From NCBI GenBank assembly GCA_012862575.1, contig BLSF01000004.1:1-64000 (forward strand): a stretch of DNA of 64,000 nucleotides, read 5' to 3'. Positions 4,912 to 63,497 of the stretch are shown in pieces. Every line of letters begins with the position of its first letter. Within the stretch, counting starts at the first letter, position 1. A model generated the notes under the pieces. The model was not told where the DNA came from, made no database searches, and saw nothing but the letters and a program-made list of their open reading frames with translations. Source of the stretch: Parietichytrium sp. I65-24A. Taxonomy: Eukaryota > Sar > Bigyra > Thraustochytrida > Thraustochytriidae. Position numbers and translations under genes: made by a program.

Positions 4912-6221
4912 ATGTTGTTGAAATCTTCTCTTCTCAATTCCATTGGCCTCTGCCTCCTTCTTCAAGCAGCGGATGGACTCTACCATATCCAGACGGTCAC
5001 CGAGGAAAACAGCGCGGACGGTAATCAATTCGGGAAAAGCTTTGACGCAAGCGCTGACGGCAGCGTGCTTTGCATTGCGCGCTCAAGCCCAACAGAGGCT
5101 TCTGGAGCCGCCAAGGTCTACATCTACGACTTGGACAATGGCGAGGAACGATGGAAACTGTCCAACACGTTTACTTCCCCGCTAGCAGACAAAAGATACG
5201 GGCATTCTCTTTCCATGAATAGGGATGGGTCGGAATTCGTGGTACTCAAAGAAGGTCAGACTGCCGCCAAGAGCGGATTCGCTTGGTATGCCATGATAAA
5301 CGGCGGCTGGGTTTCGCGACCAGGCCTCGATTCATCTCCTATTCAAAAGGAGTTCCTGAGGATTTTCCACGGAAGCTCCGGAGTGATTGGTCTGACCACG
5401 GCAACCACAATTCATGACTACGTGTTCAAGGAAACGTATTGGTCTCACAAGTTGTATCAAATCGGACAAGAGCTGTACGATGTGCAGGACGACTTCTTTT
5501 TCTTGAAAAGTGGCACACCCCAAGTCTGGCAGGTAGTTTCGAACCCTACAGCCTTTATGAACAATATCCCGCTCAAAAAATATACAATCGAGACAGTGCC
5601 CAACACTGCAAAATTCCCAAGCAATGCGGTTGCTTACAACTCGACGTTGTTTGCGATCAGCGATCTGGGCAACGAAGAGGTCGCAGGATCGATTCACATT
5701 TATTCGCTTGATACCACGAGCGATTCCTTTGTACTGGAAAAGTCCATCACTGGTGCAACCTCCGGTTTTGGCGAATACTTTTCACTGTCGGCAAACAAAC
5801 TGCTTGTGCGATCAGCATCGGGCGAACAAGCCTATCTTTATGAGCGCGACGTTGGCGGGGAGAACAACTGGGGTTTGGAGCAGACAATAGCTATTGGTGA
5901 CGCTTCTGTGGAGGCAAACTTGACCGGCCCTGTTCTCGTGACTGAGCAATACGCTTTCATCTCCGTCCCAAGCGGTGCCGGAAGAGTTCTGGTCTATGGG
6001 CCAACGTCGCCGCCGACACCTCAACCGACAGCTGGTGGAGAGACTCAGCCGCCAGCTGANATGGAGGGACTCAGCCGCCAGCTGATGGAGAGACTCGAGC
6101 TCCGACAACATCTTCAGTGGCTACAAAGGAGCCCACATCGGGAACGGCGGGCTTGGCGGGAGCGTCAGCAATTCTCTCATTCATCCTTGCAAAGCTTGTC
6201 CTGGAAGCATGTAATCCTTGA
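4912..6221 (+). CDS. Secreted, probably membrane-anchored beta-propeller-like protein
   Basis: ATG 4912 is followed by a clear signal peptide (hydrophobic SIGLCLLLQAADG, residues 10-22). Residues about 25-365 hold repeated units of the type GxxFGKSFDASADGSVLCIA and GFGEYFSLSANKLLV, with Y-I-Y/Y-L-Y strands, as in FG-GAP/Kelch-like propellers. A Pro/Thr-rich linker with a 24-bp repeat follows. The base at 6060 is N. After it the coherent frame is shifted: the shifted frame continues the repeat, then ends in a hydrophobic tail (ASAILSFILAKLVLEA) and TGA at 6219. The unshifted frame runs to 6246 with an unlikely Arg-rich end. The tail suggests a GPI or C-terminal membrane anchor on the cell surface. 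Ligand unknown. Intronless. Confidence 0.75.
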
Positions 6222-6762
6222 GTCGTTCTCTTTGTCTGGTCCGTGAAGGACATACAAACGAAACAGATCATTAGATTTGGAACTAATGTTTAATTTGGTC
6301 AAGGAGGAAAAGAAATTGAAAATACGACTCCTAGCCTTGGAAGAAAAAGGTTGCCAATCATGCTTTGTAAGCACGAAACTCTTTCTTCTGTTAGACAACA
6401 AATAAAAATCTAACAGTTTCCGGCCATACTTTTGCGGACTAGAAGAAGTGAATCAGATTTCACCAGTTGAAGTTCTGTCTGTACACCCTGGAGCATCGCT
6501 TCTTCATTTGCTGTGTGCGTTTTCTCAATTGAGAGCCTCCTACGAACCGCAGTTCCACTTTGAAAAAGTTCTGCTCGACCGCACTCTGTGTCAGACCAAT
6601 AGCATGCCTCCCCTACTTCAGAACGAGTCGCCTCTGCACTCTCTTTCGCGCCTCCTGCTGTGCAAGCGCAAGACATTTTCCTCACAATGAGCTCCCCCTC
6701 TAAATGCTTCTTTTCCATCTCCGAATAGTACGACTGTACTTTGTTCGGAGTCCAGGTCTGGA
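6222..6762. other. Intergenic, no firm gene
   Basis: A minus-strand open stretch (6410-6718) follows directly on the eIF2B-like remnant but shows no conserved motif. An AATAAA-type sequence lies at about 6400. Nothing else recognised. Confidence 0.5.
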
Positions 6763-7483: not shown

Positions 7484-8600
7484 GTTGCCAAAACTGTTCA
7501 AACCGTTGGAGAATCACAACGTGAAGGCGTGCCGTCACAGCATCAACGCTCTTCATCAGCAGGTGAAACTGCAATCGTCGACTCAGGCTCAGACTCGGCA
7601 CTAGATTCCACCAATCTCGTTCCGCCCGAGTGTAACGCCTCAGCCTCCACTTCTCCAGCGCCTGCCTGGAAGCCGTGCGATGTCGCCCAACCCGACAGCC
7701 GTTGCACCCACGTTTTCCCTCCCACCTACTCCACTGAGAGCTCCACACTCTTCGCCGTCTCCTGGCGTGGAGGGTTCTTGCCGCAGTCTGTTTCGTTACC
7801 CAAGTGCGACTTTCACAGCAGTGGCGCCTCCATCGGCAACCCGCAAGGTACCCCGGTGAATTGGCAGCCAGCCAAACCTTGTCGCCCTTTCAAGCAATCA
7901 CTGTCCCGTCTGCGAGGCAGGCGGAACAGCAGCGAGCTGTTGTAAGCACTGACTTTACCTACAAGTAGGCATTACGTCAAGTAGCACTGAGGTACTACAC
8001 CAGCTCCGGGTATTCAAAGGGTAACAAGACCAAAAACAGAGTTCTCAGAGTCGAGCTGCGCGCACTTGGCAAAGGACGACTTTAATCGACAGAGCGCTCG
8101 TATCAGATACGGGGCACGTATACGCCCACAATGAATGGAAAACTCGTCACTGTCGAGTCTAAGAAGAGCAATTTTCCTGAGGAGGACGCTATGCAATACG
8201 AAAGTCACTTCCAGGTTAGGTTAGCTCTCAGTGCAGTACCGGTAAAGGTATGCTATCAACTTGGCGTCGAAAGAGTGCGAAGCAGAGTAAAGGTAGGAAG
8301 TGTGTCGCCGTGGCGTGGGGAGCGCCAAAGAGGATCCACAAGACTGGGGGCTTTGGCTGTCGATCAAGTCGGCCAATCGTGTCAATTCTGCCATTCTGCC
8401 AGTTCTGTCAGAGTCTGTGAAACCGGCGCCTTGATCGATCGGAACGGGCCCAGTCGAACCAGTAGTCAGCCGAGCTCAGCGCAGCGCGAGCGAGCGGAGG
8501 AAACGGCGCACTGAACGCTCGGTTGAATTGCAGTGCACATGCCTCGTTCCGGACAGCTTGGAAGCCAGCTAGCTTAGAAGGCGCAAGGGCTGGGCTCGGG
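7484..8600. other. Intergenic; Ser/Pro-rich open frame of doubtful status
   Basis: One plus frame stays open over 7529-7945 (no ATG start; Ser/Pro-rich, no motif) and probably reflects composition. The last few hundred bases should hold the calpain promoter. Nothing else recognised. Confidence 0.5.
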
Positions 8601-11600
8601 ATGGGTGACAAGCTGAAGCTTTTGTATGATACTGGCTTCGAGTGGGCAGCTCGGGCGCAAGAGGAGGAGCAAGATGCGGCCAAGAAACGTGTGTGCCTGA
8701 AAGGGGCTGTCGAGGCATTTGAGGAGGCTCTTTCGCTGGAGGGTAATGCCAAGCACTGTCAAGTGTTACGGACTCAGATTCTGAACTTCAAAGAGCAGAT
8801 CAAAGAGCTAACTGAGGCTGCTCTCGCCCTGCCAGAAGCGGATAACATGGTGAAAACTGCGCTAGAGTCTGACCAGGCGAAGGACAAATCTACTGCTGAG
8901 AAGCTTTATCTCAAAGCTGCAGAAATATATCTTCAGGCACTGCAACGAGAAGGCGTGTCCCCCGAGCAAGCCGCGCGTTGGAAAGCGAGAGCTGGGAAAG
9001 TCATTCGAAGGGTTGAGGAATTGAAGACTTCCAGCCCGCCCCCGAGTGAGGTGTCGGCCCTCCCGCCTAATGCCACCAAGAGAGGGAGTGACACAACCGA
9101 CAAAAATAGACAGCAGCTCGATCAGACGAGGTACTCAGATGAAGAGATCAAAGTACTGCGGGAGTCGAGTTGGATAAATGGCAAATTGTTCGTTCCTTGG
9201 AGCGAGCGAGATGCAAGGCAAGAGGAATACCGATCCGAAAGAGTTTTCAAGGATCCGGACGGAGACCTTACGCTTTCTGAGAAACAGATGCGTGTCTTTG
9301 CCAAATGGAAGAGGGCGCCAGAGATTCTCGGTGAGAACCCACGCATGATCGTGAACATTAATGCACAGAACATCACTCAGGAGATTGTTGCAGACTGCAG
9401 TTTTGTCAGCTCGCTTTGTATTGCTGCTCATCATGAGCAAACGTTCAAAATCCCGCTCATATCCAACATCATTTATCCTCAACGGGACGACGGAAAACCA
9501 ATCTTCAATCCGAGCGGCAAGTATGTAGTGAAGCTTTGGTACAACGGTTCTGCTCGCCGCGTTGAGGTGGACGACCGCTTTCCTGTTTCTCATAATTCAC
9601 ACTGGCTATGCAGCTATTCTTCGGTGCCAAACGAGCTCTGGGTAAGCATCATAGAAAAGGCCTACATGAAATTAAATGGAGGGTTTGATTTTCCAGGCAG
9701 CGTCTCGGGCATAGACCTTTATGCGTTGACTGGCTGGATCCCGGAAGTATACCAGATCCATCGCAACGGAGAATCCGATGAAGCAAGCTCCCCAGGTGTC
9801 TCACGGATGAACGAGGAAACGTGGGCCAAACTCTTATCTGCCTCTGGTCATGGCGACGTTCTTACAACGGTTTCAACTGGGCACATCTCGGATGCCCAAG
9901 GCGAGGCGCTTGGGCTTGTTCCAACTCACGCCTATGCAGTCCTGTGCGTTTGCCAAGTGGAAGGGAAAAAGTTGATTCAGCTTAAAAACCCGTGGTCTCG
10001 CCTTTGCTGGAAAGGCAAATATAGTGCTTTCGACTCCTCGAGCTGGACGACTGAGCTACGAGCAGCGCTCCGGTATGACCCTGAGGCAGCCAAGAAAAGC
10101 GACAAGGGTATTTTTTGGATCGATTATGATTCTCTCTTGGAAAATTTCCAAGTCATTTACATGAACTGGAACCCCAAGCTCTTTGCATCGCGTTTTGTCA
10201 TTCATAGGCAGTGGCCGCAAACCGATGGGCCAGTGGACGATTCCTACAATGTCGGCGAGAATCCGCAGTTCCGCCTTACCGTAAACGTGCCCGTGGAAAC
10301 AAATGGCAGAGTAAAAAGCGAGGCTGGCATTGTCTGGTTGCTGCTGACAAGACACGTCACAGATAAACGCCAGCTCTTAAGCCAGGACAAGGGAGATTTC
10401 CTGACTCTGAACGTTTACGATCGCAAAAACGGTCGCCGAGTGTTTTATCCTGAAAAGGCTTTAATAAGAGGGGTGTACAGTAACAATCCACACACTTTAG
10501 TTGCATTTCAGGCAAAGCCGGGGAAAGCTAGGTACACGCTGGTCGTCTCTTTATTTGAGAAAACTCGGGCTGTCAATTACACGTTGATCGTTTATGCATC
10601 GCAACACTGCTCTCAGCCTGCGCCAGTTCTCACAGAAATTCCAATGCACTTGAGCTACTGTAAACAGCTCAAAGGAGGGTGGGATAGTGGATCGAGTGGA
10701 GGGTGTCCACGATATCCAGGATATTTCAGCAACCCGCAATGGAGAATTCGGCTAAAGACGGCTCCGCCTCATGGAAAGTCAACACTGCAGTGCAGACTAC
10801 TCGCCCCGAAAGAATTTGCAGTGAATCTTCGGCTGTTTCATTTGGACGAAGATGCTCTCCTCCGAGCAGGGAGAGTCGACACCGCCGACCCGTCCTTGGA
10901 GGTGGGCTCCTCCGGGGCATATAGAAAAGGTTTCTGTATTCTCGAATTGCCGTCTTCGTCTACTTCCAGAGAAGGCCCCGCTCCCACATGGGAGCCTGCG
11001 GCCAAATCAACGTACACTTTGGTAGCTTCCACCTTTGAGCCTGAGCGAAGAGGGCCCTTCTTTTTGCACGTCGAGATGGACGTTCCATTCTTGATAGAGC
11101 CTATAGAACCTGAAGGCTCAGGCATGCTGAGACATGACATTTCCGGAGATTGGATAGAGGGTGTTTCTTCCTTTGGATCTCCAAATCATGCTGCTTATCA
11201 TCGTAACCGATCCTTTGTCTTCCGTGTGTCATCACCCATCATAATGATGGCACGCTTGCAGTTCCTTCCCGAGAGCTCGGTATCTTTTGAATCGGTTCGA
11301 TGGCCTTCACTGAATCTTGCCTTGTATCCTGTGTCGGAAGAGAAGAGGTTGAGCGCTGGAATAAACTTGGGTGATGCCATATGTGCCTCGAACGGTGGGG
11401 TATATATCAATGCGCCTTGTGGCGCTCTAGTTCCGAAATGCCCCCTCGGTTCTGGTTTGTATGCGCTTGTTCCAAGTACCTTTCGGCCCATGTCTGGCCG
11501 ATTTATTCTCACTGTATATTCTTCAAAAGCCATCAGATTTCGCGACGAGCTCGAGAATGGCAGTCCCAGCGATAATTCGAGTGCTTCCGCGCCTGAGCCT

Positions 11601-11630
11601 CCATTCAACCCCACAAGAACCTATTTATAG
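8601..11630 (+). CDS. CAPN7-like: Calpain-7-like cysteine protease (PalB/CAPN7 family)
   Basis: A 1009-residue intronless protein. Start chosen at ATG 8601, the first in-frame ATG, giving MGDKLKLLY, the beginning of an MIT-type helix bundle; two MIT-like segments span about residues 1-145 (AxxLYLKAAEIYLQAL). The CysPc domain covers about 180-530, with all three calpain catalytic residues visible: Cys266 (ADCSF), His443 (THAYAV) and Asn463 (KNPW). Two or three C2-like beta-sandwich domains fill the C-terminus. This is the MIT-CysPc-C2L layout of calpain-7/PalB, which in animals and fungi binds ESCRT-III and works on endosomes. There is no EF-hand penta domain, so it is not a classical calpain. 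Convergent with the Sfi1-like gene. Confidence 0.88.
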   Translation: MGDKLKLLYDTGFEWAARAQEEEQDAAKKRVCLKGAVEAFEEALSLEGNAKHCQVLRTQILNFKEQIKELTEAALALPEADNMVKTALESDQAKDKSTAEKLYLKAAEIYLQALQREGVSPEQAARWKARAGKVIRRVEELKTSSPPPSEVSALPPNATKRGSDTTDKNRQQLDQTRYSDEEIKVLRESSWINGKLFVPWSERDARQEEYRSERVFKDPDGDLTLSEKQMRVFAKWKRAPEILGENPRMIVNINAQNITQEIVADCSFVSSLCIAAHHEQTFKIPLISNIIYPQRDDGKPIFNPSGKYVVKLWYNGSARRVEVDDRFPVSHNSHWLCSYSSVPNELWVSIIEKAYMKLNGGFDFPGSVSGIDLYALTGWIPEVYQIHRNGESDEASSPGVSRMNEETWAKLLSASGHGDVLTTVSTGHISDAQGEALGLVPTHAYAVLCVCQVEGKKLIQLKNPWSRLCWKGKYSAFDSSSWTTELRAALRYDPEAAKKSDKGIFWIDYDSLLENFQVIYMNWNPKLFASRFVIHRQWPQTDGPVDDSYNVGENPQFRLTVNVPVETNGRVKSEAGIVWLLLTRHVTDKRQLLSQDKGDFLTLNVYDRKNGRRVFYPEKALIRGVYSNNPHTLVAFQAKPGKARYTLVVSLFEKTRAVNYTLIVYASQHCSQPAPVLTEIPMHLSYCKQLKGGWDSGSSGGCPRYPGYFSNPQWRIRLKTAPPHGKSTLQCRLLAPKEFAVNLRLFHLDEDALLRAGRVDTADPSLEVGSSGAYRKGFCILELPSSSTSREGPAPTWEPAAKSTYTLVASTFEPERRGPFFLHVEMDVPFLIEPIEPEGSGMLRHDISGDWIEGVSSFGSPNHAAYHRNRSFVFRVSSPIIMMARLQFLPESSVSFESVRWPSLNLALYPVSEEKRLSAGINLGDAICASNGGVYINAPCGALVPKCPLGSGLYALVPSTFRPMSGRFILTVYSSKAIRFRDELENGSPSDNSSASAPEPPFNPTRTYL

Positions 11631-11857: not shown

Positions 11858-14800
11858 TTACAGGATGGACGCACTCTTTCCCAGCACAGTTTTTGCCTGC
11901 CAGTTAGCGTGAAATCGGTAAAAAACCCGACGCTTCAAAATGGTGCGGCGGTACTCCAGAGCAGCCAACGCCAACAATTTTTGACGTGATCTATGTCGCG
12001 CAAAGTCGGACATGCGAAGAAACACTCTTCGCATCGTCATTTGCTTCCATATTTTATGGACCTTAAAAAGTAGACCCTCAAATCGATCTCGCTCCCTCAC
12101 TGTAGATGAATGCCAATGCCGAAAGACAACCGATAGCTTCCTAGCCGCCATGTTGCAACTAAAGGTGCGATATGCCTGTGCTCTCCTTGCCGCAGACTCT
12201 TGTGCGACTTTTCTCCACTCCTTCAAGACGCGATTCTGGGTTTCGAGCTCCAGTACCAACCTACGATGATAAATTCGAAAGCCCACATCCAAGACTAGCC
12301 TTCGAAGCGCGAAGCGCTTGTGCTGCTGGCTTGCAGCACGCGAGGCTTGGGTTCGCCTTGCCCAAGCGTGAAAGACTTGTTGGGCCAAGCGACGCGCGTG
12401 TTGATGATCCAGCCTCTCCGCCAGGAGCAACGAGTCCCGCTGTCTAGATAAGATGCGACGAACATTAATTACTCGAAGAGTCCATTGCTTCCAAGACACG
12501 AATGTTTGCAACACCAAGCCGACTGATTGATTCCACCCTTTCCATCGGGCCCAGGCTCTCTTCTTTGAGACACTCGCGAATATGTGCCCCAGACGCCACA
12601 CTCTCTTCCAAACTCGCCAAACCCAATTCTTCAATATAATCGCATGCACGCTAGAGATCTTTCGTGCCCCATCTATTCGCGTTTGCCTGGAGTAAGAGAC
12701 AGAAGCTTTCCAGGCGTCGAATGCGGTATGCAGATACTTTCGACGTAAAAGTCTTTTTGCGCGAAGCACCCCGAGCATGTGATCCCTGTTCGCTTTCGCG
12801 AGGCACAATTGACGCCACCTCTGGTACACTTCGTGTAATGCTTTTTGTCGTAGTGCCGAGCTGTGTCGTCTCCAGAGTGTGAAAGATTTTCGAATCGCCA
12901 GGCATCGCAACTTTTTCATGAGAAAGGCAATCTTCCACGAAAACCAGACGCTAGCCTTTACGGACCTTCTGATGATATTGGAGGCAATCTGTCGAGCTCG
13001 CGATGCGGACGCTTTTTGGTGAAGGGTTCGCAGAGCTTTCCGTAGGTAGTGATCATTCGCGCGGTGCATGGATACCTTCTGCATCTGCCTAGAATGCCCG
13101 AACGAAACAAGTGCGGAGAGGCCCCTACGCTGCAACGCATTCTTCTGTATCTTGCAAAGAAGCTCTTCCGAGGTCCAAGGGAAACTGGGATATCCGACAT
13201 TCAGGGCCGTAGCACCATGTCGAGTAAATTCTGACCTAATGAGGCAAGCGAGAAGCTGTTCGCGCCACCTTCGTTCGCCAAGGGTATGCAACCTCCACGC
13301 CTGAAACGCGTTATCCAAGGTCGCAATGCTCTCCCGCAATTGTGATATTCTTGCTGACAAACTTGCATGCCGCCAAGATCGCCAACACCGTGCCTTCAGA
13401 TGATATTCAAACGAGGCGATGGCGCGCTGCATCACTGCGTGTCGACACGCATTGCCTGCAATCGAAGTCAAGCCTTTTCGCTTCAGCCGGGTATGATGCC
13501 ACTGAGAAGCTAGATTCAAAGAGCTCGCACACGCCCGTCCGATCAATGCCCACTCACTCCAAACACGTTCCATATTCCGTCGCCCTAGCTTTGCCTCGTT
13601 GCGCAAAACCTTGGTGCATACCTTCCATGCCTGGAAAGAGCAACGAAGGCTGCGGAAGTACCAAGCGTGGGACGCCTCCAGAAGCTGACGACGTCGTGCT
13701 TTTTGGTTCGCTCTTCTGTGAGACAGCATTCGAAACAAGCGAAGTTTTCCTTGCTTCTCGCTATACTCTCTTGCAACACATATGCTGTACCTTTCCCTCT
13801 TGCGCAACCGCGCATGGTCAGTCAGATTCCGTAAAGCCCGCTGCAGATGATAGATTCTGACTCTTTGAGCACAAATGGCCCTCGCCCGCCAGCTCGCGAC
13901 CCACAAGCCCCATACTTGCTGTGTCAAATTGCGCGCAAGCATTTGCTCCGCAAGGTATCTTCCGGCTCTCCTCTCATGGCATTGGCGAACGTTTTCTTGA
14001 AGTCGCCAAAGCGCCTTTCTGCCTAAAACCATGCGAAACGACTTACAGCTATGACGAATCCGTTGTTGAGAATACCGATTACCTTGCAAGCACGAGAAAG
14101 CGTTCAAAAGCTGAGACTTTATGCGAGCGAGTTCAAAAGACCGTGCCCCCCGGGACAGCTCTGTAGCCTTTCTCCAGCTGGAGAAACTTCGCCACAGGAT
14201 GGCGCGACGTATGACCTTTTCTTTTCGCCCCAGCAGAAGACGCTTTCGCAAACCTCTGAAGAGCCGCTCCCCGGCAATTCGCCGTCGGTATTGATCTCCC
14301 ATGCATGTCGTGCGTGCTCGTTCACACTCTTGCTTCAATGCACTTATCGCCCGTCTGGTTCGAAGAGCAGCCAGGGCTTGGTTGAGCATTTCCGAGGAAT
14401 AATTAATGCAAAGCTGAGACTCTCTGTATCTTCTCAAAGAATCGAGGCCTTTTCGTGTAGCAATTTTTTCTAGATGCTCTTTGGCTAGATATTCATTTCG
14501 CCGAGACTTTAACCGCAACAGCTTCTTCAGACAGCGGATAGCACGCTGCTGCAAACTTTTCGGACCGTTTACGCGCGAGTGCCATTCTATTGTTGCACGA
14601 CAAAGAAGTTTTGCCTTCAGTGCCTCCTTTCTCCGCAACGCCAGGGCAGATAGAAGAGCCTTGAATGCACTCTTTGTCCACAGCACCGTCGCCTTTTTTA
14701 GGCCAGCTTTGCGAGTCCTGTTTTCGCGTAACTTCACCAGGGCTCGCTTTTTCCATGCAACTTGCACAGCTTGTAAAACTATTTCGCGCCTGAGCTTTTC

Positions 14801-16276
14801 TGCGAAGTTATATTGCTGGGCTCGAAGTCTTGCATCGCGCAGGCCTCGGAGTACTTTTCTTCCCGCACGGCGTTTCCTCAGCTCATCAGCCGCGGCCACG
14901 GTAAGAGCAAAGCCTCTCCGTTCCATCAATCCTCCCAACAGTCGATGGGCATGATAGTGCTCAAAGTGTTTCTCGGCCGCGAGAAGAGATAGCTTCTTAA
15001 GAGATGCCTCTCGGACAGCGCAGCGCAACGCAAAGAATACCCTTCGTCTCATCGACTGCTTCCAGTGTACTTCAGCCTTATGGCATTTTCTGCGATTGCT
15101 GAGATTTTCCCGCAGTCTGCATAGAAGATGCTGTCCCCAAAAACTCTTCAGTATTTGGTTGTTGCATCTGACTTGGCTGACTTTGGCGGCATTCTCTTTC
15201 AGTCGCAGGAGTGCTCTTTGGGCTTTTCTACGCTCCCATAGTCGTGAAATTAGGTCGCCGTACTTTCGTTCGCGAATTAATTGTGTCAGGTTCGACAAGA
15301 TAACCTTTCCCCATTTTCTACGCGCACCCAGCCGTCCAACGCGGCGTTGTCCTTCGCGCACGGCATTGCTTTGAAGTGCGCTAATGCATCGTCGAGTGGC
15401 ACGTAACCACCAATGTACAGTAGCGTCCCGAAGGATACGCTGTCTAGCTGCATTTACGCATAGTTTCGACATTGTCATGCGCTCCGCGTACATCGTTCGA
15501 TGGGCATCGCTGGCCTTGAGAGCGTGGACACGCTTCAGAAATTCTTTCAGCTTTCGAAAATGTTTGAGCAAAAGGATTCGGGACTGATGAGCATTCGCCA
15601 ATTGAGCGAGGCGGGCTTTGGACAGGTTTCGGTGCAACCTTTTGCATACGAGACGCATCATTTTTACTCTCCAGGCACTACACGCAACTCGCTCCACACG
15701 TTTCTCGGCGCAATTGTGCCTGAGCGCGATAAAATATCGCTTCAAAGTGGTCAACGTGCCAAGTTGAGCAATCTCTTTCATCAGTGACGACCGAGCCAGA
15801 TTTCTCCTAAGGGCTTTGATAAATTTAGACTTTAGCTTTGCGCGATAGAGATAGTCGCCGACTTCGCGCCTTTGTGCGTTAATTCGCCCATGGCGAACCT
15901 TGGCAAGCAACCTCAGCAACACTTTTGCCCTAGCTCCATCCTCCCAATAAGCCTCACATTGCTCCTTGATCAGCTCTCCTTGCTGCCTGCAAATCACTCG
16001 GGCTCTCCAGTGTCTGAAAGCAATGGTCACGGCCCAAGCGTCCGACAGCGCCATAGCATGCAACGTCAGCGGCCTGAAGAGACTCGGCACAAAAGGCAAG
16101 CAAGGTAAAGATCCTCGTATCCAACGAAAAATTGCTCGGATATGAACCGGGTGCCTTAGCGCCGCTACCTCAAGGCGGCGTACTGCGGACCATCGTAACA
16201 AGAGCGATTGCGCAAGCTTATTCTCTTCGGATGCCAACGTTCGCCTCTCGCTTAGTGCAGTTTGAAGTGCCTCCAT
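11858..16276 (-). CDS. Sfi1-like centrin-binding repeat protein
   Basis: A 1472-residue intronless protein starting at ATG 16276 and ending TAA at 11858. Throughout, it consists of Arg/Lys/Trp-rich helical repeats of about 25-40 residues with the pattern F/W-x-x-W-(R/K) and L-x-x-L, for example AFDAWKASV, VYQRWRQL, VWRVWKRVW and SWKQWTL. This is the Sfi1/spindle-body pattern, in which one long helix binds many centrins. It is basic, with no other domain. Sfi1-type proteins sit at centrosomes, spindle pole bodies and basal bodies. The length is larger than yeast Sfi1 (about 950). Exact partner and site are inferred. 227 bp separate its stop from the calpain stop. Confidence 0.75.
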   Translation of the reverse strand: MEALQTALSERRTLASEENKLAQSLLLRWSAVRRLEVAALRHPVHIRAIFRWIRGSLPCLPFVPSLFRPLTLHAMALSDAWAVTIAFRHWRARVICRQQGELIKEQCEAYWEDGARAKVLLRLLAKVRHGRINAQRREVGDYLYRAKLKSKFIKALRRNLARSSLMKEIAQLGTLTTLKRYFIALRHNCAEKRVERVACSAWRVKMMRLVCKRLHRNLSKARLAQLANAHQSRILLLKHFRKLKEFLKRVHALKASDAHRTMYAERMTMSKLCVNAARQRILRDATVHWWLRATRRCISALQSNAVREGQRRVGRLGARRKWGKVILSNLTQLIRERKYGDLISRLWERRKAQRALLRLKENAAKVSQVRCNNQILKSFWGQHLLCRLRENLSNRRKCHKAEVHWKQSMRRRVFFALRCAVREASLKKLSLLAAEKHFEHYHAHRLLGGLMERRGFALTVAAADELRKRRAGRKVLRGLRDARLRAQQYNFAEKLRREIVLQAVQVAWKKRALVKLRENRTRKAGLKKATVLWTKSAFKALLSALALRRKEALKAKLLCRATIEWHSRVNGPKSLQQRAIRCLKKLLRLKSRRNEYLAKEHLEKIATRKGLDSLRRYRESQLCINYSSEMLNQALAALRTRRAISALKQECERARTTCMGDQYRRRIAGERLFRGLRKRLLLGRKEKVIRRAILWRSFSSWRKATELSRGARSFELARIKSQLLNAFSCLQGNRYSQQRIRHSCKSFRMVLGRKALWRLQENVRQCHERRAGRYLAEQMLARNLTQQVWGLWVASWRARAICAQRVRIYHLQRALRNLTDHARLRKRERYSICVAREYSEKQGKLRLFRMLSHRRANQKARRRQLLEASHAWYFRSLRCSFQAWKVCTKVLRNEAKLGRRNMERVWSEWALIGRACASSLNLASQWHHTRLKRKGLTSIAGNACRHAVMQRAIASFEYHLKARCWRSWRHASLSARISQLRESIATLDNAFQAWRLHTLGERRWREQLLACLIRSEFTRHGATALNVGYPSFPWTSEELLCKIQKNALQRRGLSALVSFGHSRQMQKVSMHRANDHYLRKALRTLHQKASASRARQIASNIIRRSVKASVWFSWKIAFLMKKLRCLAIRKSFTLWRRHSSALRQKALHEVYQRWRQLCLAKANRDHMLGVLRAKRLLRRKYLHTAFDAWKASVSYSRQTRIDGARKISSVHAIILKNWVWRVWKRVWRLGHIFASVSKKRAWARWKGWNQSVGLVLQTFVSWKQWTLRVINVRRILSRQRDSLLLAERLDHQHARRLAQQVFHAWARRTQASRAASQQHKRFALRRLVLDVGFRIYHRRLVLELETQNRVLKEWRKVAQESAARRAQAYRTFSCNMAARKLSVVFRHWHSSTVRERDRFEGLLFKVHKIWKQMTMRRVFLRMSDFARHRSRQKLLALAALEYRRTILKRRVFYRFHANWQAKTVLGKSASIL

Positions 16277-37153: not shown

Positions 37154-38872
37154 ATGGGAGGAGGTATTGCGCAAGGATCAGCGCCGCACAAGCAGCACAG
37201 GCAGCGACGTCAACAGAGACAAGTTCGGTCCGATCGCAAGAGAGAGCATGCGTCTTCGCAATCTGGCAGACGGCAAAGGGTTAAATTAGAGGCAGACTAT
37301 GCGCAGCAGCACTTGCTACTGCAGCAGCAGCAGCAACAACAACAAGAGCAGCAGCAACAACAACAACAAGAGCAGCAGCAGCAGCACGGCGGTGGCTACG
37401 AGCAGTTCACCTCGAACGACCATGCTCGACGCGCGCAGTTGCAAGGGAAATTAGCGAAGGATGAAGGCAAATCTCTCTGTTTTCGGGAGGCGCCAGATGA
37501 AGAAGAAGGCGTTTCTAGGTTTGATGGAAGTAGCGGACAGGACGAAGATGTGAACGAACTTATGAATATCTTATTTGACAGCTCCAGCAGTGGGGGGTCA
37601 GCCCCCAGGCGACAAGGGCGGCATCAGCACGTTCATCACGCCGAGACTTTCACAGATGAAGGCGGGTGGGGTCAGATTGACGAGGAGTACATGCCTCGCC
37701 CAACGGAGCCTAAATTCGTGACCGTTCCTGCGGTCTCCAGGTCCGCGCAACCTCCGCTTACGTCGTTCCAACCAGAGTATATGCAGTATCCAGAGCAGCA
37801 GCAGCAGCAGTCGATGCTAATGCCGATGGGGTCAACGTCTTCGTCGTCTTCGTCGGCCCCTAGTTCGGGCGCGTCCTTATCGAGGACTTTCAGTAAAAAT
37901 AATGCTGGGCCACCCCCGGCTCAGCTCCCAACAGAGGTTTTGCATCAGCCGCCTCAGCAAGGATTCATAACAGTCGAAAATATGGGTGGCGGAGCTTCGG
38001 AAATATTGCCTCCGGGGCCATCACGCAAACGGAGCAGGAAATCACAATCGATTTCCGAATCTCTTCCAAGAGGGTTTCTGCCACCTCCTTTTCAACGCCT
38101 TCCATCGCCTGCACTGCCGCCTAGCCACATGATTCACTCGTCCGTGTCGCCCAGCTCCAACAGCATGATCCAGTCGGCAATTTCGCCCAGCTCCAACAGC
38201 ATGTCAAATGACCTTCCCAACTCGCCGTCTTCCATCTCAAAGAAGAATTCCAAGCTGGACAGGTTCTTTTGGAGCGATCAGCAGCACTCGCTGTTTCTTC
38301 AGGCCATGTTCCGTCTTGGTCTCACCGAGCAAAAGCCTGACGAAGTAATGTTGATAATGAGCCTGACAAAGCCAGACGGAGCTTTAATGCTGTGCAAGAG
38401 CACAAAAGAGATGGAGCTGATCTTGAAGCGGCTGCTCAACTCGATGGAAGCCATGGTGGAGGTTTTCGCAGTGCAAATGCAGATTGCGTGCAGGCAGGCC
38501 CCGTCGCGGACGAACATTAACGAGAGGAAGGGAGGGCACCCATCCTTTCATGTTTACCCGTTCCCTGTTCGCGAATATCCGTGCGACCCCGTCGTCGCAG
38601 AGGTGGTTGGCCTGGATACCAGCGCCGATAAAACTTTTTGTCAGAGGCTGATGGCTGCCGTCTTTGATCTTGGGCTCAAGTACGCTCGCCCAAAGACTCT
38701 ATTTGCACAGATGCAGCCATGTGCCGAGCAGTTGACATCTGGTTCCATAAAATCTCACTTGCAAAAGTACAGAGCCAATTGCCGCTCGACGAGAAGAATG
38801 TTTCTTGAGCTCTTTGGGCCAAACGAGGCCTGCAGAGCAGAGTCGGTTGACTTGTACCCCACTCGTACTTAA
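37154..38872 (+). CDS. Q-rich regulator with two GARP/MYB-like modules
   Basis: A 572-residue intronless protein from ATG 37154. The N-terminus is basic (residues 14-45), then a poly-Gln tract coded by CAG/CAA (about 51-77). The middle is Ser/Pro/Gln-rich and disordered. A module at about 367-430 begins DRFFWSDQQHSLFLQAMFRLG, like helix 1 of GARP/MYB domains (W-x-x-x-x-H-x-x-F). A second module at about 490-540 has FCQRLMAAVFDLGLKYARP, then SIKSHLQKYR (residues 531-540), the GARP signature that contacts DNA. GARP proteins are transcription factors of plants and many protists. The first module lacks the SHLQKYR end and the second lacks the Trp, so they may act together. Target unknown. Confidence 0.7.
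   Translation: MGGGIAQGSAPHKQHRQRRQQRQVRSDRKREHASSQSGRRQRVKLEADYAQQHLLLQQQQQQQQEQQQQQQQEQQQQHGGGYEQFTSNDHARRAQLQGKLAKDEGKSLCFREAPDEEEGVSRFDGSSGQDEDVNELMNILFDSSSSGGSAPRRQGRHQHVHHAETFTDEGGWGQIDEEYMPRPTEPKFVTVPAVSRSAQPPLTSFQPEYMQYPEQQQQQSMLMPMGSTSSSSSSAPSSGASLSRTFSKNNAGPPPAQLPTEVLHQPPQQGFITVENMGGGASEILPPGPSRKRSRKSQSISESLPRGFLPPPFQRLPSPALPPSHMIHSSVSPSSNSMIQSAISPSSNSMSNDLPNSPSSISKKNSKLDRFFWSDQQHSLFLQAMFRLGLTEQKPDEVMLIMSLTKPDGALMLCKSTKEMELILKRLLNSMEAMVEVFAVQMQIACRQAPSRTNINERKGGHPSFHVYPFPVREYPCDPVVAEVVGLDTSADKTFCQRLMAAVFDLGLKYARPKTLFAQMQPCAEQLTSGSIKSHLQKYRANCRSTRRMFLELFGPNEACRAESVDLYPTRT
37318..37385 (+). repeat. CAG/CAA repeat coding poly-Gln
   Basis: A run of CAG and CAA codons with GAG interruptions, in frame in the GARP-like protein; likely length-polymorphic. 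Confidence 0.9.
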
Positions 38873-39405: not shown

Positions 39406-41475
39406 TTAATAGCACACCGGAATGACGAAAAAGCCGAAGGCAATGAGGAGTGGGAAACAAAGCTGCATCATGAAAGATACCCATTGGAAGATCCCGTCGA
39501 TCGTGTGGAATGGCACTCGTTGGGGCAGACCTTTGCTAACACTACCCCTCACATCCTTCACTAGCTGCACACCGAAAAGTACACGCACAATATCCTTCAA
39601 AAATTTGCGCGACGTAGATTCTGGGATACTGTAGTTTTTGATCCGCATATTCGGAATGTCATGCTCAATGTCAGTAATTTCCTCAGGAATCCGTGACATG
39701 AAAATGACTTTGTCCCATCGAGACCACGTGCGGTATTCGCGATACTTGTCAAAGATTCCAGAAGGATTGCGCGCAAAGTAGTTGAGGAATGTGTCGAAAA
39801 AGGAGAATGACACAACGCGCTTTTCAAACTGCTCGATGCCGTCCTCGTTCCCTTTTTCCCTCGAGTATTTGGCGCACTCGCTGAACAGAGCGTCTTCTTC
39901 TGACATGAACTGCGGGTTCCTGTCGTCCTTGCGAGCCAGGCTTGCCTTCTTCAGCTGCGGGAGAAAATACATGGCGCCGCCAAGTTCATCGGCGTATTGC
40001 TTGGTGTCAATGTCGTAAGCCTTGCAAAAGGCATTTGGATTGCTGATCAAGCGGAGCCGCAGAGACGACTGAAGCACAAGCTGCCAAGCCCCGGCATTTA
40101 GCCAGCGATTACCCTCGTCATACCATTCGGAGGCAGCTACCTGCTCATCAATCTGGTGAATGAACTCGCCCGCCAAAGCGTTCAAGATGACGTCGAGTAC
40201 CTCCTCGGTATTGAATAAAATGAAAAGCATGATCGAGTACAGAATGCACACAAACGCTGTGTTCATGTAACGGTCCATTTTGAATCCAAGCTGCTGTAAA
40301 AATGTATCGTCCCCTTGCTCCCACACCACCTGCCTCAACGAATTGAGTTTGCTGTATGTCGTGTGCGCGTCTCCTGTGGTTCGGTAGAATTTGCTCAAGT
40401 TGTCTGGCACGACGGTGAGGATGTACACGGACAGCACCGCAAGAACCATGAGCTTTCCGGTCATGTTTCCTGATGTGTGGCAGAACTGCTCCCAACTGGT
40501 CTCGATGCTAAAGTTCTCCCAGCTGTCGTCTATTTCAAAGCGATCCGAGTTGACGAGGGCGTTGAACAAGAGAAGCACTGGGATCAAAAGTTGCACCACG
40601 AAACAGAAGAGGGCGAAGAAGGATCCGCTGCCCAGAATGGAGAGGTAAGTGTAAACAGACATGTCATCGTCTTCGAAATGCCATTCGTCCTTGTCCTCTG
40701 TGATCTTGTCCAGCAGCTCGAATGGCGTGATGAGATGGTTTAGCAACATCTCCTGGACATTGTGCGTTTGCTTCTTGTAGTGACGCAGGAAGTCCGCGTT
40801 GCGCTCATCATTCAGCCACTCGTGAAACAAGTCATCTGCGTATTTTTGACAGTCCACCTCCATAAAGTCGCGCTCATGATCGCGCTGGAACCTCACGTGT
40901 CTCTCCAGCTTAAGGAAGCAGTATTGTTGCCACACCCACGGTCTTGAGCCAAAGATGGCTTTCAGCCCTTGCTCTGTGGCGCGGATTTTCGTTTCGAAAA
41001 GCATATTTGCGCCGTCCACATTGTAGTATGTGTCGTACTCTGGCTCTTTTCCAGCATTGTCAGGATCATTCCAGTCCCAGGAGTCAGGCGCCTGCTTGAC
41101 CACCCCGCGGATCTGCGTGACATGCCACTTCATATCGGAGCCAATGTATTCCACCCAGTCTCCTCTCGAATACACTGTCGTGGTCTTGTCCGTCTGGTGA
41201 AGGATGCTTCGCACAAGCTCTCTCACCTTCGGCGCCGCAGAAATCTCTCCGTACAGGGACTTGACGATCTTGCGTGCTTGCGCCCTAATGTCGTCCATGT
41301 CCATTTCGGAAGCTTCGCTGAAAGTGTCAGACTGCTTGACGTAGATCGACACCGCGTGGTCCAAGAGCTTTTGACGGTTCCTGCCGCGCTTGTCCATGCG
41401 GCCCGAGTTATCGCTCTCCTCTTCCGCCTCTTCCACGGCGGGGTCCATCGCAGGGTCCTTTTCGTCGTCCGGCAT
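39406..41475 (-). CDS. Multipass membrane protein of unknown function
   Basis: 689 residues from ATG 41475, intronless. The N-terminal 270 residues are charged and cytosolic-looking, with a possible small barrel at about 103-126 (RGDWVEYIGSDMKWHVTQI). Four hydrophobic segments at about 283-308 (FFALFCFVVQLLIPVLLLF), 339-357, 403-422 and 665-688 suggest an integral membrane protein with a large loop between TM3 and TM4. I recall related proteins of unknown function in diatoms and other stramenopiles, but this is from memory and unverified. Not a known channel or transporter family that I can name. The upstream 8-bp repeat (41576-41646) may be in its promoter. Confidence 0.6.
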   Translation of the reverse strand: MPDDEKDPAMDPAVEEAEEESDNSGRMDKRGRNRQKLLDHAVSIYVKQSDTFSEASEMDMDDIRAQARKIVKSLYGEISAAPKVRELVRSILHQTDKTTTVYSRGDWVEYIGSDMKWHVTQIRGVVKQAPDSWDWNDPDNAGKEPEYDTYYNVDGANMLFETKIRATEQGLKAIFGSRPWVWQQYCFLKLERHVRFQRDHERDFMEVDCQKYADDLFHEWLNDERNADFLRHYKKQTHNVQEMLLNHLITPFELLDKITEDKDEWHFEDDDMSVYTYLSILGSGSFFALFCFVVQLLIPVLLLFNALVNSDRFEIDDSWENFSIETSWEQFCHTSGNMTGKLMVLAVLSVYILTVVPDNLSKFYRTTGDAHTTYSKLNSLRQVVWEQGDDTFLQQLGFKMDRYMNTAFVCILYSIMLFILFNTEEVLDVILNALAGEFIHQIDEQVAASEWYDEGNRWLNAGAWQLVLQSSLRLRLISNPNAFCKAYDIDTKQYADELGGAMYFLPQLKKASLARKDDRNPQFMSEEDALFSECAKYSREKGNEDGIEQFEKRVVSFSFFDTFLNYFARNPSGIFDKYREYRTWSRWDKVIFMSRIPEEITDIEHDIPNMRIKNYSIPESTSRKFLKDIVRVLFGVQLVKDVRGSVSKGLPQRVPFHTIDGIFQWVSFMMQLCFPLLIAFGFFVIPVCY

Positions 41476-60670: not shown

Positions 60671-61279
60671 ACCAAACCAACCAAACGCGTATAGCCTGTA
60701 AATTACACGAATTCATTATTCCAACCGATTCAATCAATCACGAAAAGTTAAATTAATTCTCCTCGTCCTGCAATCTACATGCAACCCCCTGCCGTCGCAT
60801 CTTTGTCACTCTCTTTCTCTCTACCGCATGCTCAATGCATCAAGGACCAAATCGCTTCCTCGCATTTCCCATCGATCGACCACACTACTCACCGTAGCGC
60901 AGCTCTGATCCAATCCTAACAGTTTGTCTAGTTTTGGTCTCTCTAAAAGTTGCCAAAGCAGCCAAAGCTATCTTATTTTAAGCCTCGTGTCTCGAGGTGT
61001 CGAACGTGGCGGGACCGCCAAGCTACAAATGTCACACGCCCAGATCACCCAGGGAAGAGGAGAATACACCAGGTTACCAGGATTGGCCTAGATTGCAGTG
61101 GACCGCAGTGGATTGGACTGGATTGGCGCTCGCGTTGCAGGAGCTATGGAGCTGTTCGTGCCTGGCAGGTAAGTGGCGCAGGCTGGCGTGGAGTGGAGCG
61201 GCAGAGACGCTGTGGTTTGCTTGCTTGGACGATCGATGTGGGGGACGTTGAAGGTGGAAATGCTGGCCTTTACGGCGCG
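60671..61279. other. Intergenic / possible leader of next gene
   Basis: Frames at 60950-61279 run into the start of the next gene, so extra 5' exons there cannot be excluded. No separate gene. Confidence 0.5.
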
Positions 61280-63497
61280 ATGGGTGGACCTGGCTCGAAG
61301 GTTATAGTGGGGCGGCGATGGAAGCGTGATGCTGAACGAATCGAGTGGTGTTGTGACTTTGCTAGGGTGTGCCTGCTCGGCGAACACTCGGACTGGTAAG
61401 TTGGTGTCTTTCGGGCTGCGGGATTCCAGGCAGTAAAGTGGATAACATGTGGACTGTATTCCTCAGGGCTGGAGGGTTCCAGAGATTCAACAAAGAGATT
61501 GACCATGGAGTCACTCTTGTAACGGGGACGAACCAGGGCGTCTTTGCGAAGGTGAAAAAGCACCCTTCGCTGATGGTCCTCACAGCCACAGACAACAATG
61601 GGAACAAGCAGCACGCGTCCTTCAGCACCGACAAGGAGACGTTACTCCAAGTGGCTCGCGAAGGCGGATTCTGGAGCTATATCGCAGGAGTCGCCTACAA
61701 AATGTCTGAAGATCACATCATTGGGGGCCTTGAGCTGGACAATTACATGACAACTCTGCCCCTAGGCAAAGGGCTCTCCTCCTCGGCTGCGATCTGCGTC
61801 CTCACCGCCAGGGCATTCAACAAGCTATATGATCTTCGCTTGACCACCAGAGGTGAAATGGGTAAGTTTCTCCAAACACGAGTCTGTTTCTCTTTTGCAG
61901 GGCTGCGAAGATTCTAAGTGGATTGCATGCCAAAATAGAGTATGCTTATCAGGGGGAGCTGATCACCCCTTCACAGTGCGGGCGACTGGACCAGGCTTGT
62001 GCATTTGGGAGTACAGCCGTGCGGATGACCTACAGCGGAGAGTTCACTGGAGTGGAGAAAATTAGCGTAGCTGTGAAGCTACACTACGTTGTAGTCGATC
62101 TCAAAGCAGAGAAGGACACGACACAAATTCTTAAAGGCCTTCAAAGTGCTTATCCTTTCGCACAGAACGAGATACAGAGGAATTTGCACCATTGTTTGGG
62201 AAAAGCGAATTTAGAAATCTGTGGTAGAGCCCAAAAGCTGATTTCGGGCACAACGATTCCGCCACTCTCTGCGGAAGAAACGATCAAAGAGCTCGGGGAG
62301 CTGATGAACAAAGCGCAAGATATTTTCGACAAGTACGCAGCCCCGCTTTGCCCTGCACAGCTGACTGCCCCTGTACTACACAAATGCCTTCAATACGAGC
62401 CGATCCAGCACCTTATTGCAGGTGGTAAGTACGTAGGTGCTGGTGGAGACGGGACCGCACAAATTTTATGCAAAAACGCCGCCGCACAAGATGAGGTTGC
62501 TCGGATCGTCAAGAACGAGCTAAATATGGACCCCCTTTTGCTTACTATTAGCCCCAGCTCTCGCATTCAGACTGCGGTGATACCTGCTGGTGGATTTGCA
62601 GCTGCGTTGTTTCCAGCTAGTCACGCTTGCAAAGCCGAATTGTTCCCCATACTAGACCCAAAGGACGGAAGATGCAAGCCTCTAATTTTGCACACAGTGG
62701 AACAGCTTCTTGAAGCGGGTATCGAGAAAATCATCATTATCGTGCAACAAGATGATCTTCATCAGTTTAAGCGATTGTTTGAAGAGTCACTGCCGATATC
62801 AAAGCTGCGTAAAATCCCGCAAAGCGAGAGCACAAGCGACGCTGGGCCGGAGAGAGGGACTTATGCGCGTAGCATCATTGACCTTGGCAGGCACGTGCAT
62901 TACGTGGTGCAAGAGAAACAGGCGGGCTTTGGGCACGCCGTGTACAGTGCCAAGCAAGTTGTCGGCCAAAATCCGTTCCTCCTCGTACTTGGACACCACC
63001 TGTACATCTCAGACCAAAATTCTCGCGCAACTTGCGCGGAGCAAATAATCGAGGCGCACAGGTCACTTGGCAACAGTGTAGTCGGGCTAAAGCATACGCC
63101 GCTGTCACAAGTTGACCAGTTTGGAGCAGTGGGGGGCTCGCTAAAGGACGGAAATGTGGTTGCTGTCTCCACCGTTCACGAGAAGCCTTCGCAAGCCCAC
63201 GCTATGGCGAATTTGCGCATCGAAGGTTTGCTAGATGATAGTTTTCTTACAATGTTTGGCATGTACGCTTTAGAGCCGCGAATTTTCGACATTCTCCACG
63301 AGCACGTCGTCCATGATCTTCGGGACGCCAAGGGAGAAATCGCATTCACACCAGCTCTTGACCAGCTCCGACAGGAAACCGGGTTGTACGGATCGATCAT
63401 ACAAGGCGAGCGTCTAGCGATCTCCAATCCTGAGGACTATATTCGCACCAATCAGCGTCTCTTGGAACTCCATGACCTTCAGCGGACGATATCATAG
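61280..63497 (+). CDS. Fusion of GHMP sugar kinase and GalU-like nucleotidyltransferase domain, three exons
   Basis: Exons 61280-61395, 61467-61861 and 61939-63497 with introns of 71 and 77 bp (GTAAGT...CTCAG, GTAAGT...AATAG). The total is 2070 nt, 689 residues. The first exon ends LLGEHSDW, and the junction gives GEHSDWAGG, the GHMP kinase first motif. The second motif PLGKGLSSSAA is near 135-147, and YVGAGGDGTAQ near 325-340. The second junction gives RGEM-EYAYQGELITPSQCGRLDQAC, a family block only formed by splicing. From about 385 a nucleotidyltransferase fold of GalU type follows (ILDPKDGRCKPLILHTVEQLLEAGIEKIIII). Signature residues of GalU look replaced, so the second domain may be inactive or altered. 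Likely substrate: a sugar or sugar-1-phosphate. The start is uncertain. Confidence 0.75.

Follow-up and report, generated by a model that had tools for sequence, protein, structure and literature searches.

The question raised by this locus is what role a GalU-type nucleotidyltransferase domain plays when it is fused to a sugar kinase and most of its catalytic set has been replaced. The window, i.e. the whole 64,000-nucleotide stretch of DNA that was analyzed, encodes a protein of this kind, in which four of five catalytic transferase residues differ from the canonical ones. Judging from its motifs and predicted fold, it is likely to be a bacterial-type bifunctional sugar-activating protein with an intact kinase and a dead GalU-type half that is kept as a structure or as a sensor.

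The gene is placed at 61146-63497 on the forward strand and is predicted to encode 668 amino acids in four exons, separated by three GT-AG introns (Table 1). This splice model was derived from homology and the GT-AG sites, with bacterial homologues guiding the splicing. The preliminary description had let the gene start at 61280, which is wrong: roughly its first 28 residues belong to intron 1, and the true start in our model is at 61146 (MELFVPGR...). The corrected N-terminus, MELFVPGRVCLLGEHSDWAGG, aligns without gaps to the Nostoc kinase MRIFVPGRLCLFGEHSDWAGE, and the junction of exons 3 and 4 reads ...GEMEYAYQGE. A third intron at 61862-61900 was rejected because it breaks the reading frame, and was replaced by the one listed. 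Since three GT-AG introns are required and the neighboring genes include an SLC12 transporter, a calpain, a Suv3 helicase, and a protein kinase, the window is eukaryotic. The calpain (8523-11630, forward strand) shows an N-terminal MIT domain match slightly under Pfam's cut-off. Four long open reading frames of the window have no Pfam match at E 0.001: 11858-16276 (–, 1472 amino acids), 37154-38872 (+, 572), 39406-41475 (–, 689), and 4912-6246 (+, 444).

Table 1. Features of the predicted kinase-GalU fusion gene (window coordinates).
Feature	Position	Strand	Remarks
Exon 1	61146..61168	+	MELFVPG + 2 bases; N-terminus matches Nostoc kinases MRIFVPGR
Intron 1	61169..61365	+	GTAAGT...TAG, 197 bases; encloses the start at 61280 of the preliminary description
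Exon 2	61366..61395	+	(R)VCLLGEHSD(W)
Intron 2	61396..61466	+	GTAAGT...CAG, 71 bases
Exon 3	61467..61861	+	Kinase ATP loop PLGKGLSSSAA
Intron 3	61862..61938	+	GTAAGT...TAG, 77 bases
Exon 4	61939..63497	+	Remaining kinase (catalytic D167 in CGRLDQ) and entire GalU-like domain; stop 63495-63497
Modelled GalU-like domain, predicted pseudo-uridylyltransferase (residues 352-668)	62544..63494	+	AlphaFold model and solved GalU matches

The N-terminal half (residues 1-356) is a GHMP sugar kinase that retains its catalytic motifs. Pfam GHMP_kinases_N (PF00288) matches it with an E value of 1.8e-10; this search, which also gave the NTP_transferase match, and the NCBIfam, plasmid, and single-protein viral-contig searches used the earlier, uncorrected N-terminus as part of the query, whereas the alignments with the genome loci are based on the corrected one. 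The ATP loop PxGxGLSSSAA, the N-terminal R..GEHxD, and the catalytic Asp in CGxxDQ are present. R8, E14, H15, D17, S122, S124, E156, and D167 are kept in the window protein and in all of the 97 distinct sequences among 106 full-length bacterial and phage copies, on which the residue counts are based (the partial loci L126 and L127 were left out). The E-H-x-D set is galactokinase-like, and the nearest PDB sequences are the galactokinases 1s4e and 2cz9. By spacing, R8, D17, E156, and D167 are equivalent to Arg592, Asp601, Glu751, and Asp762 of the L-fucokinase/GDP-fucose pyrophosphorylase FKP (PMC11982464). We infer from these motifs that the kinase half is active. The Pfam matches and the kept residues bear out the original proposal of an intact kinase that continues in the same frame into a nucleotidyltransferase domain.

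The C-terminal half (residues ∼357-668) is a GalU-type nucleotidyltransferase (NTase) domain. It is matched by Pfam NTP_transferase (E 5.5e-17); the best NCBIfam model is galU with 131.5 bits (E 3.9e-38), which is under the model cut-off of 326.8, and the nearest PDB sequences are YngB of B. subtilis and other GalU proteins. An AlphaFold model of this half, based on an alignment (A3) of the window protein with 67 of 78 homologue rows (76 genome loci plus the viral contigs L088 and L089), is confident, with a mean pLDDT of 91.3 and a pTM of 0.90, and is weaker locally in the blocks 21-30, the signature loop (pLDDT 67), and 91-100 (pLDDT 55). Against solved GalU structures the model reaches Z scores of 28-32, the top match being 5i1f (Z 32.4, rmsd 3.0, 281 residues aligned), and 3juk_D gives a Z of 31.8 (rmsd 2.1, 262 aligned). 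For the bacterial fusion L007, modelled with 42 other rows, pLDDT and pTM were 89.9 and 0.74.

While this fold is kept, the catalytic residues are mostly gone. The signature had been quoted as GGFAAALFPASHACKAELFP and the metal site as LGHHLY, and both are found in the sequence. We assigned equivalent residues by motif alignments with GalU-type sequences from the PDB. The GxGTR triphosphate loop reads GFAAA in the window protein: Gly370 (95 of 97 bacterial and phage copies) and Arg372 (84 of 97) are both replaced by Ala. Further along, Lys378 (94 of 97) is His, and Lys382, which is invariant in all 97 copies, is Ala; located ten residues after the Arg, it is presumably the catalytic Lys, as in RmlA. 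Both metal positions differ as well. Asp502 of the LGD motif (97/97) is His, and Asp643 of the FDxG motif (97/97), which we take to be the second metal Asp by analogy to RmlA, is Ala; Gly645 (97/97) is Ser. Not one of the 97 homologues lacks K382, D502, or D643, and the aligned motifs contain no replacement acidic pair for the metal site. The sugar and base sides of the pocket are retained: Lys565 of the sugar-phosphate EKP motif (97/97) is kept, and so are Gln474, presumably the base-site Gln as in RmlA, and a GxGHA stretch. RmlA Q83 variants with dGTP and dATP are among the structure matches, which fits this role of the Gln.

Checking the retention in homologues confirmed that the losses of the signature Arg and Lys noted in the preliminary description are real, whereas the proposed loss of an Asp-Asp metal site stands in part. 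D502 is gone, but the second position, 503, is His in 96 of the 97 copies; since the family site is thus G-D-H, only one Asp of the quoted pair was lost, and the additional lost metal Asp, D643A, had been missed. Loss of the Arg is weak proof on its own because 13 of the 97 copies also lack it. These 13 fusions carry Q, H, D, K, G, or N instead (examples are L012, L015, L016, L024, L026, L043, L008, L075, L027, L085, and L100) and keep Lys382 and both Asp residues. In the Pontiella genome (L015), a separate GalU-like gene is located ∼2.4 kb from the fusion.

Studies on GalU (PMC4643126) describe a decrease of Vmax by about three orders of magnitude for T20M/R21H and an ∼500-fold lower specific activity upon mutation of Thr20/Arg21 in the loop. 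According to the same text, the EKP Lys binds Glc-1-P, and D142 binds the metal in GalU of C. glutamicum. For the window protein, the replaced residues make a loss of pyrophosphorylase catalysis a strong inference, and the assignment as a kinase with a predicted dead transferase is well supported. Because the shape is kept and nearly all catalytic residues are lost, the transferase half is probably structural or sensing.

The fusion itself, which had been regarded as notable, turned out to be a common bacterial architecture. When bacterial and archaeal genomes were scanned with a kinase alignment, at least 572 relatives were obtained among at least 590 stretches; the best 80 were examined as loci and do not represent a census. 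The kinase-GalU order, colinear over residues 1 to ∼653, occurs in many bacteria (Chloroflexota, the PVC group, and others): 76 of the 80 loci are single-frame fusions aligned over about this range with 44-49% identity (tblastn with the whole protein as the query). The four exceptions are L028 and L072, which run into a contig end, and the cyanobacterial loci L062 and L079, whose kinase match does not share a frame with the transferase match. In the phylum to which Pontiella belongs, 41 of 288 sampled genomes match at E ≤ 1e-40, some of them only through the transferase half; of 30 loci extracted, 28 are full-length. We found no name for these bacterial fusions (L006-L085 and L098-L125) and no description of a kinase-first GHMP-GalU fusion among the papers listed from open-licence full text, where subscription papers are largely missing. 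They share domain order, colinearity, and all eight kinase positions with the window protein and keep Lys382, Asp502, Asp643, and mostly Arg372, whereas the window protein has lost all four. The analysis thereby brings to light a widespread bacterial fusion, and in these bacteria a single enzyme might lead from free sugar to UDP-sugar.

Relatives were also present in viral contigs and plasmids. The kinase-alignment search of viral (phage-like) contigs gave four loci: L088 and L089 (6001-7917) carry the full fusion with 35% identity, while L086 (5983-7140) and L087 (5998-7023) encode a kinase, and no transferase is matched within the stretches examined there. With the single window protein as the query, three stretches but no relative were obtained from viral contigs. 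By eye, the neighbors of L086 resemble lysozyme-type, radical-SAM, and glycosyltransferase open reading frames, and phage-borne sugar activation is possible. In the plasmid search, 246 records match, none of which covers 80% of the query. Three Nostoc plasmids that we viewed carry the kinase with no GalU neighbor listed in their gene table, which is incomplete, and a Sphaerospermopsis plasmid (L002, 8974-10731) carries a kinase cut to its C-terminal half beside a GalU-like gene that is complete and has the canonical residues. Around the 80 genome loci, the most frequent neighbor clusters are a nucleotide-sugar epimerase/dehydratase-like protein and TIGR03790, found in seven cases each, and a GmhB-like phosphatase was found in four, each cluster being named from one representative. 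No conserved operon was seen around these loci, and their neighborhoods give no consistent lead to the sugar. Based on the bacterial, phage, and plasmid collections, the gene was probably acquired horizontally from bacteria.

Both halves of the window protein have diverged. On average, it is 51% identical to the 78 homologue rows over the kinase half and 44% over the NTase half, compared with 68% and 60% among the rows themselves; because both values drop in proportion, the NTase half shows no disproportionate drift. Near-invariant positions (≥97% of the 78 rows) are kept at 101 of 114 sites in the kinase and 50 of 64 in the NTase half, so that the kinase, too, has lost 13 such residues. The five catalytic residues carry more than their share of losses (Fisher's test, p = 0.025 and 0.031 at two conservation cut-offs), while for a wider pocket set p was 0.035 at one cut-off and 0.175, i.e. 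not significant, at the other; these tests used 77 rows, as L089 is a duplicate of L088 and was dropped. Statistically, this concentration on catalytic sites is modest. For this one eukaryotic sequence, the unbroken frame over 668 codons, the proportional divergence, and the confident model fit an NTase half that is kept for a non-catalytic purpose.

Several known systems resemble this protein in part. GalU and YngB share the fold, the EKP Lys, and the base-site Gln with the window protein, but are free-standing and possess the GxGTR loop, the Lys, and the metal Asp that it lacks. FKP combines both activities on one chain, similar to the domain pair described here, and shares by spacing the kinase Arg, the Asp base, and the sugar-binding Asp; according to PMC11982464, its order is reversed, with an N-terminal pyrophosphorylase that uses GTP and a C-terminal fucokinase, and both halves are active. 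The eukaryotic fusion DrGKUP of zebrafish likewise joins a GHMP kinase to a bacterial-type NTase, but with the NTase first; PMC3938481 describes its pyrophosphorylase activity as barely detectable, with a small signal after a 70 h assay, and its kinase as found by homology to Arabidopsis glucuronokinase, with several substrate residues conserved. Functional precedents for an NTase homologue with weak or absent catalysis are GalF, a natural low-activity GalU homologue (PMC4643126), and GMPPA, a non-catalytic, GDP-mannose-binding feedback inhibitor (PMC11228364), both of which are separate proteins with no fusion to a sugar kinase.

In the proposed mechanism, the anomeric, galactokinase-like GHMP kinase half would make a sugar-1-phosphate, and UDP-sugar formation would be completed in trans by UDPGP-family enzymes of the host. 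The latter step could occur because the genome contains such genes (five UDPGP-family matches, the best being C34 with 463 bits). The dead domain would then bind the sugar phosphate or UDP-sugar without turnover, thereby stabilizing or feedback-controlling the kinase; such binding may occur because Gln474 and Lys565 are kept while the triphosphate and metal ligands are lost. We hypothesize a regulatory role of this domain as one of the leading readings. Its specific form, a built-in product sensor in which UDP-sugar made in trans binds the kept base/sugar-phosphate pocket and throttles the kinase, is put forward only tentatively. If true, it would represent a GMPPA-like feedback device inside a single, horizontally acquired polypeptide.

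The NTase half could instead be a structural passenger that serves kinase folding or oligomerization and has no ligand-dependent role, which we regard as a serious possibility at somewhat less than even chances. This alternative shares the dead domain with the preferred explanation and disputes only its role, and the confidences in the two overlap. The persistence of the fold after loss of the catalytic residues speaks for it, yet retention of Gln474, the EKP Lys565, and GxGHA in one pocket is more than scaffolding needs. The kinases seen on their own, on the three Nostoc plasmids and two viral contigs, bear on it in both directions: the module can stand alone, but a scaffold is then not strictly required.

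An active transferase with an altered mechanism or a different substrate is improbable. The fold and the sugar-side residues would allow it, and His502 could in principle bind a metal, as the metal site of FKP probably includes a His (PMC11982464). However, Ala has taken the place of the catalytic Lys, the Gly and Arg of the triphosphate loop, and Asp643, and His that of Asp502; neither metal Asp is left, and the aligned motifs offer no substitute acidic pair. Evolution of the domain for another substrate, as suggested initially, is likewise unsupported, since what has been lost, both metal ligands and the catalytic Lys, belongs to the general catalytic machinery and does not determine sugar specificity. 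That the entire gene is decaying, either as a pseudogene of recent origin or as an artefact of the assembly, is most improbable of all: the window protein is placed on a long branch with no starred support in a quick kinase tree of 85 rows (2.42 compared with a median end branch of 0.21), but three canonical introns, the open frame, the retention of all checked kinase catalytic residues, and a base composition resembling that of the adjacent genes argue against it. A sequencing error, which the preliminary description had allowed for, is implausible given that the NTase half differs at 14 of its 64 near-invariant positions while the frame stays intact. Under the preferred explanation of an intact kinase with a dead GalU-type half, this eukaryotic relative, in which the predicted fold persists, provides a natural test of a metabolic enzyme domain turning into a non-catalytic partner.

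The genome that contains the window comprises 42.5 Mb in 172 contigs. At E 0.001 the window protein matches itself alone in it, with no canonical paralogue seen; a conventional galactokinase is encoded on C95 (324 bits), and PF00483 is found in three places, two of them outside this gene (C57 and C52). Searches of the genome gave no light-harvesting match and no PfaA match above the cut-off of that model; an elicitin search, in which no control gave a signal, also had no match. The 18S rRNA 3′ end may be of the labyrinthulomycete type. Elsewhere, the stretch L093 1-1670 (G000 C16) shows, by eye, Copia-like reverse transcriptase/RNase H coding sequence beside the 3′ end of an 18S rRNA. At G000 C66 8562-22499, a 5583-amino-acid open frame with four matches to one PfaA model segment resembles a very large modular polyketide synthase.
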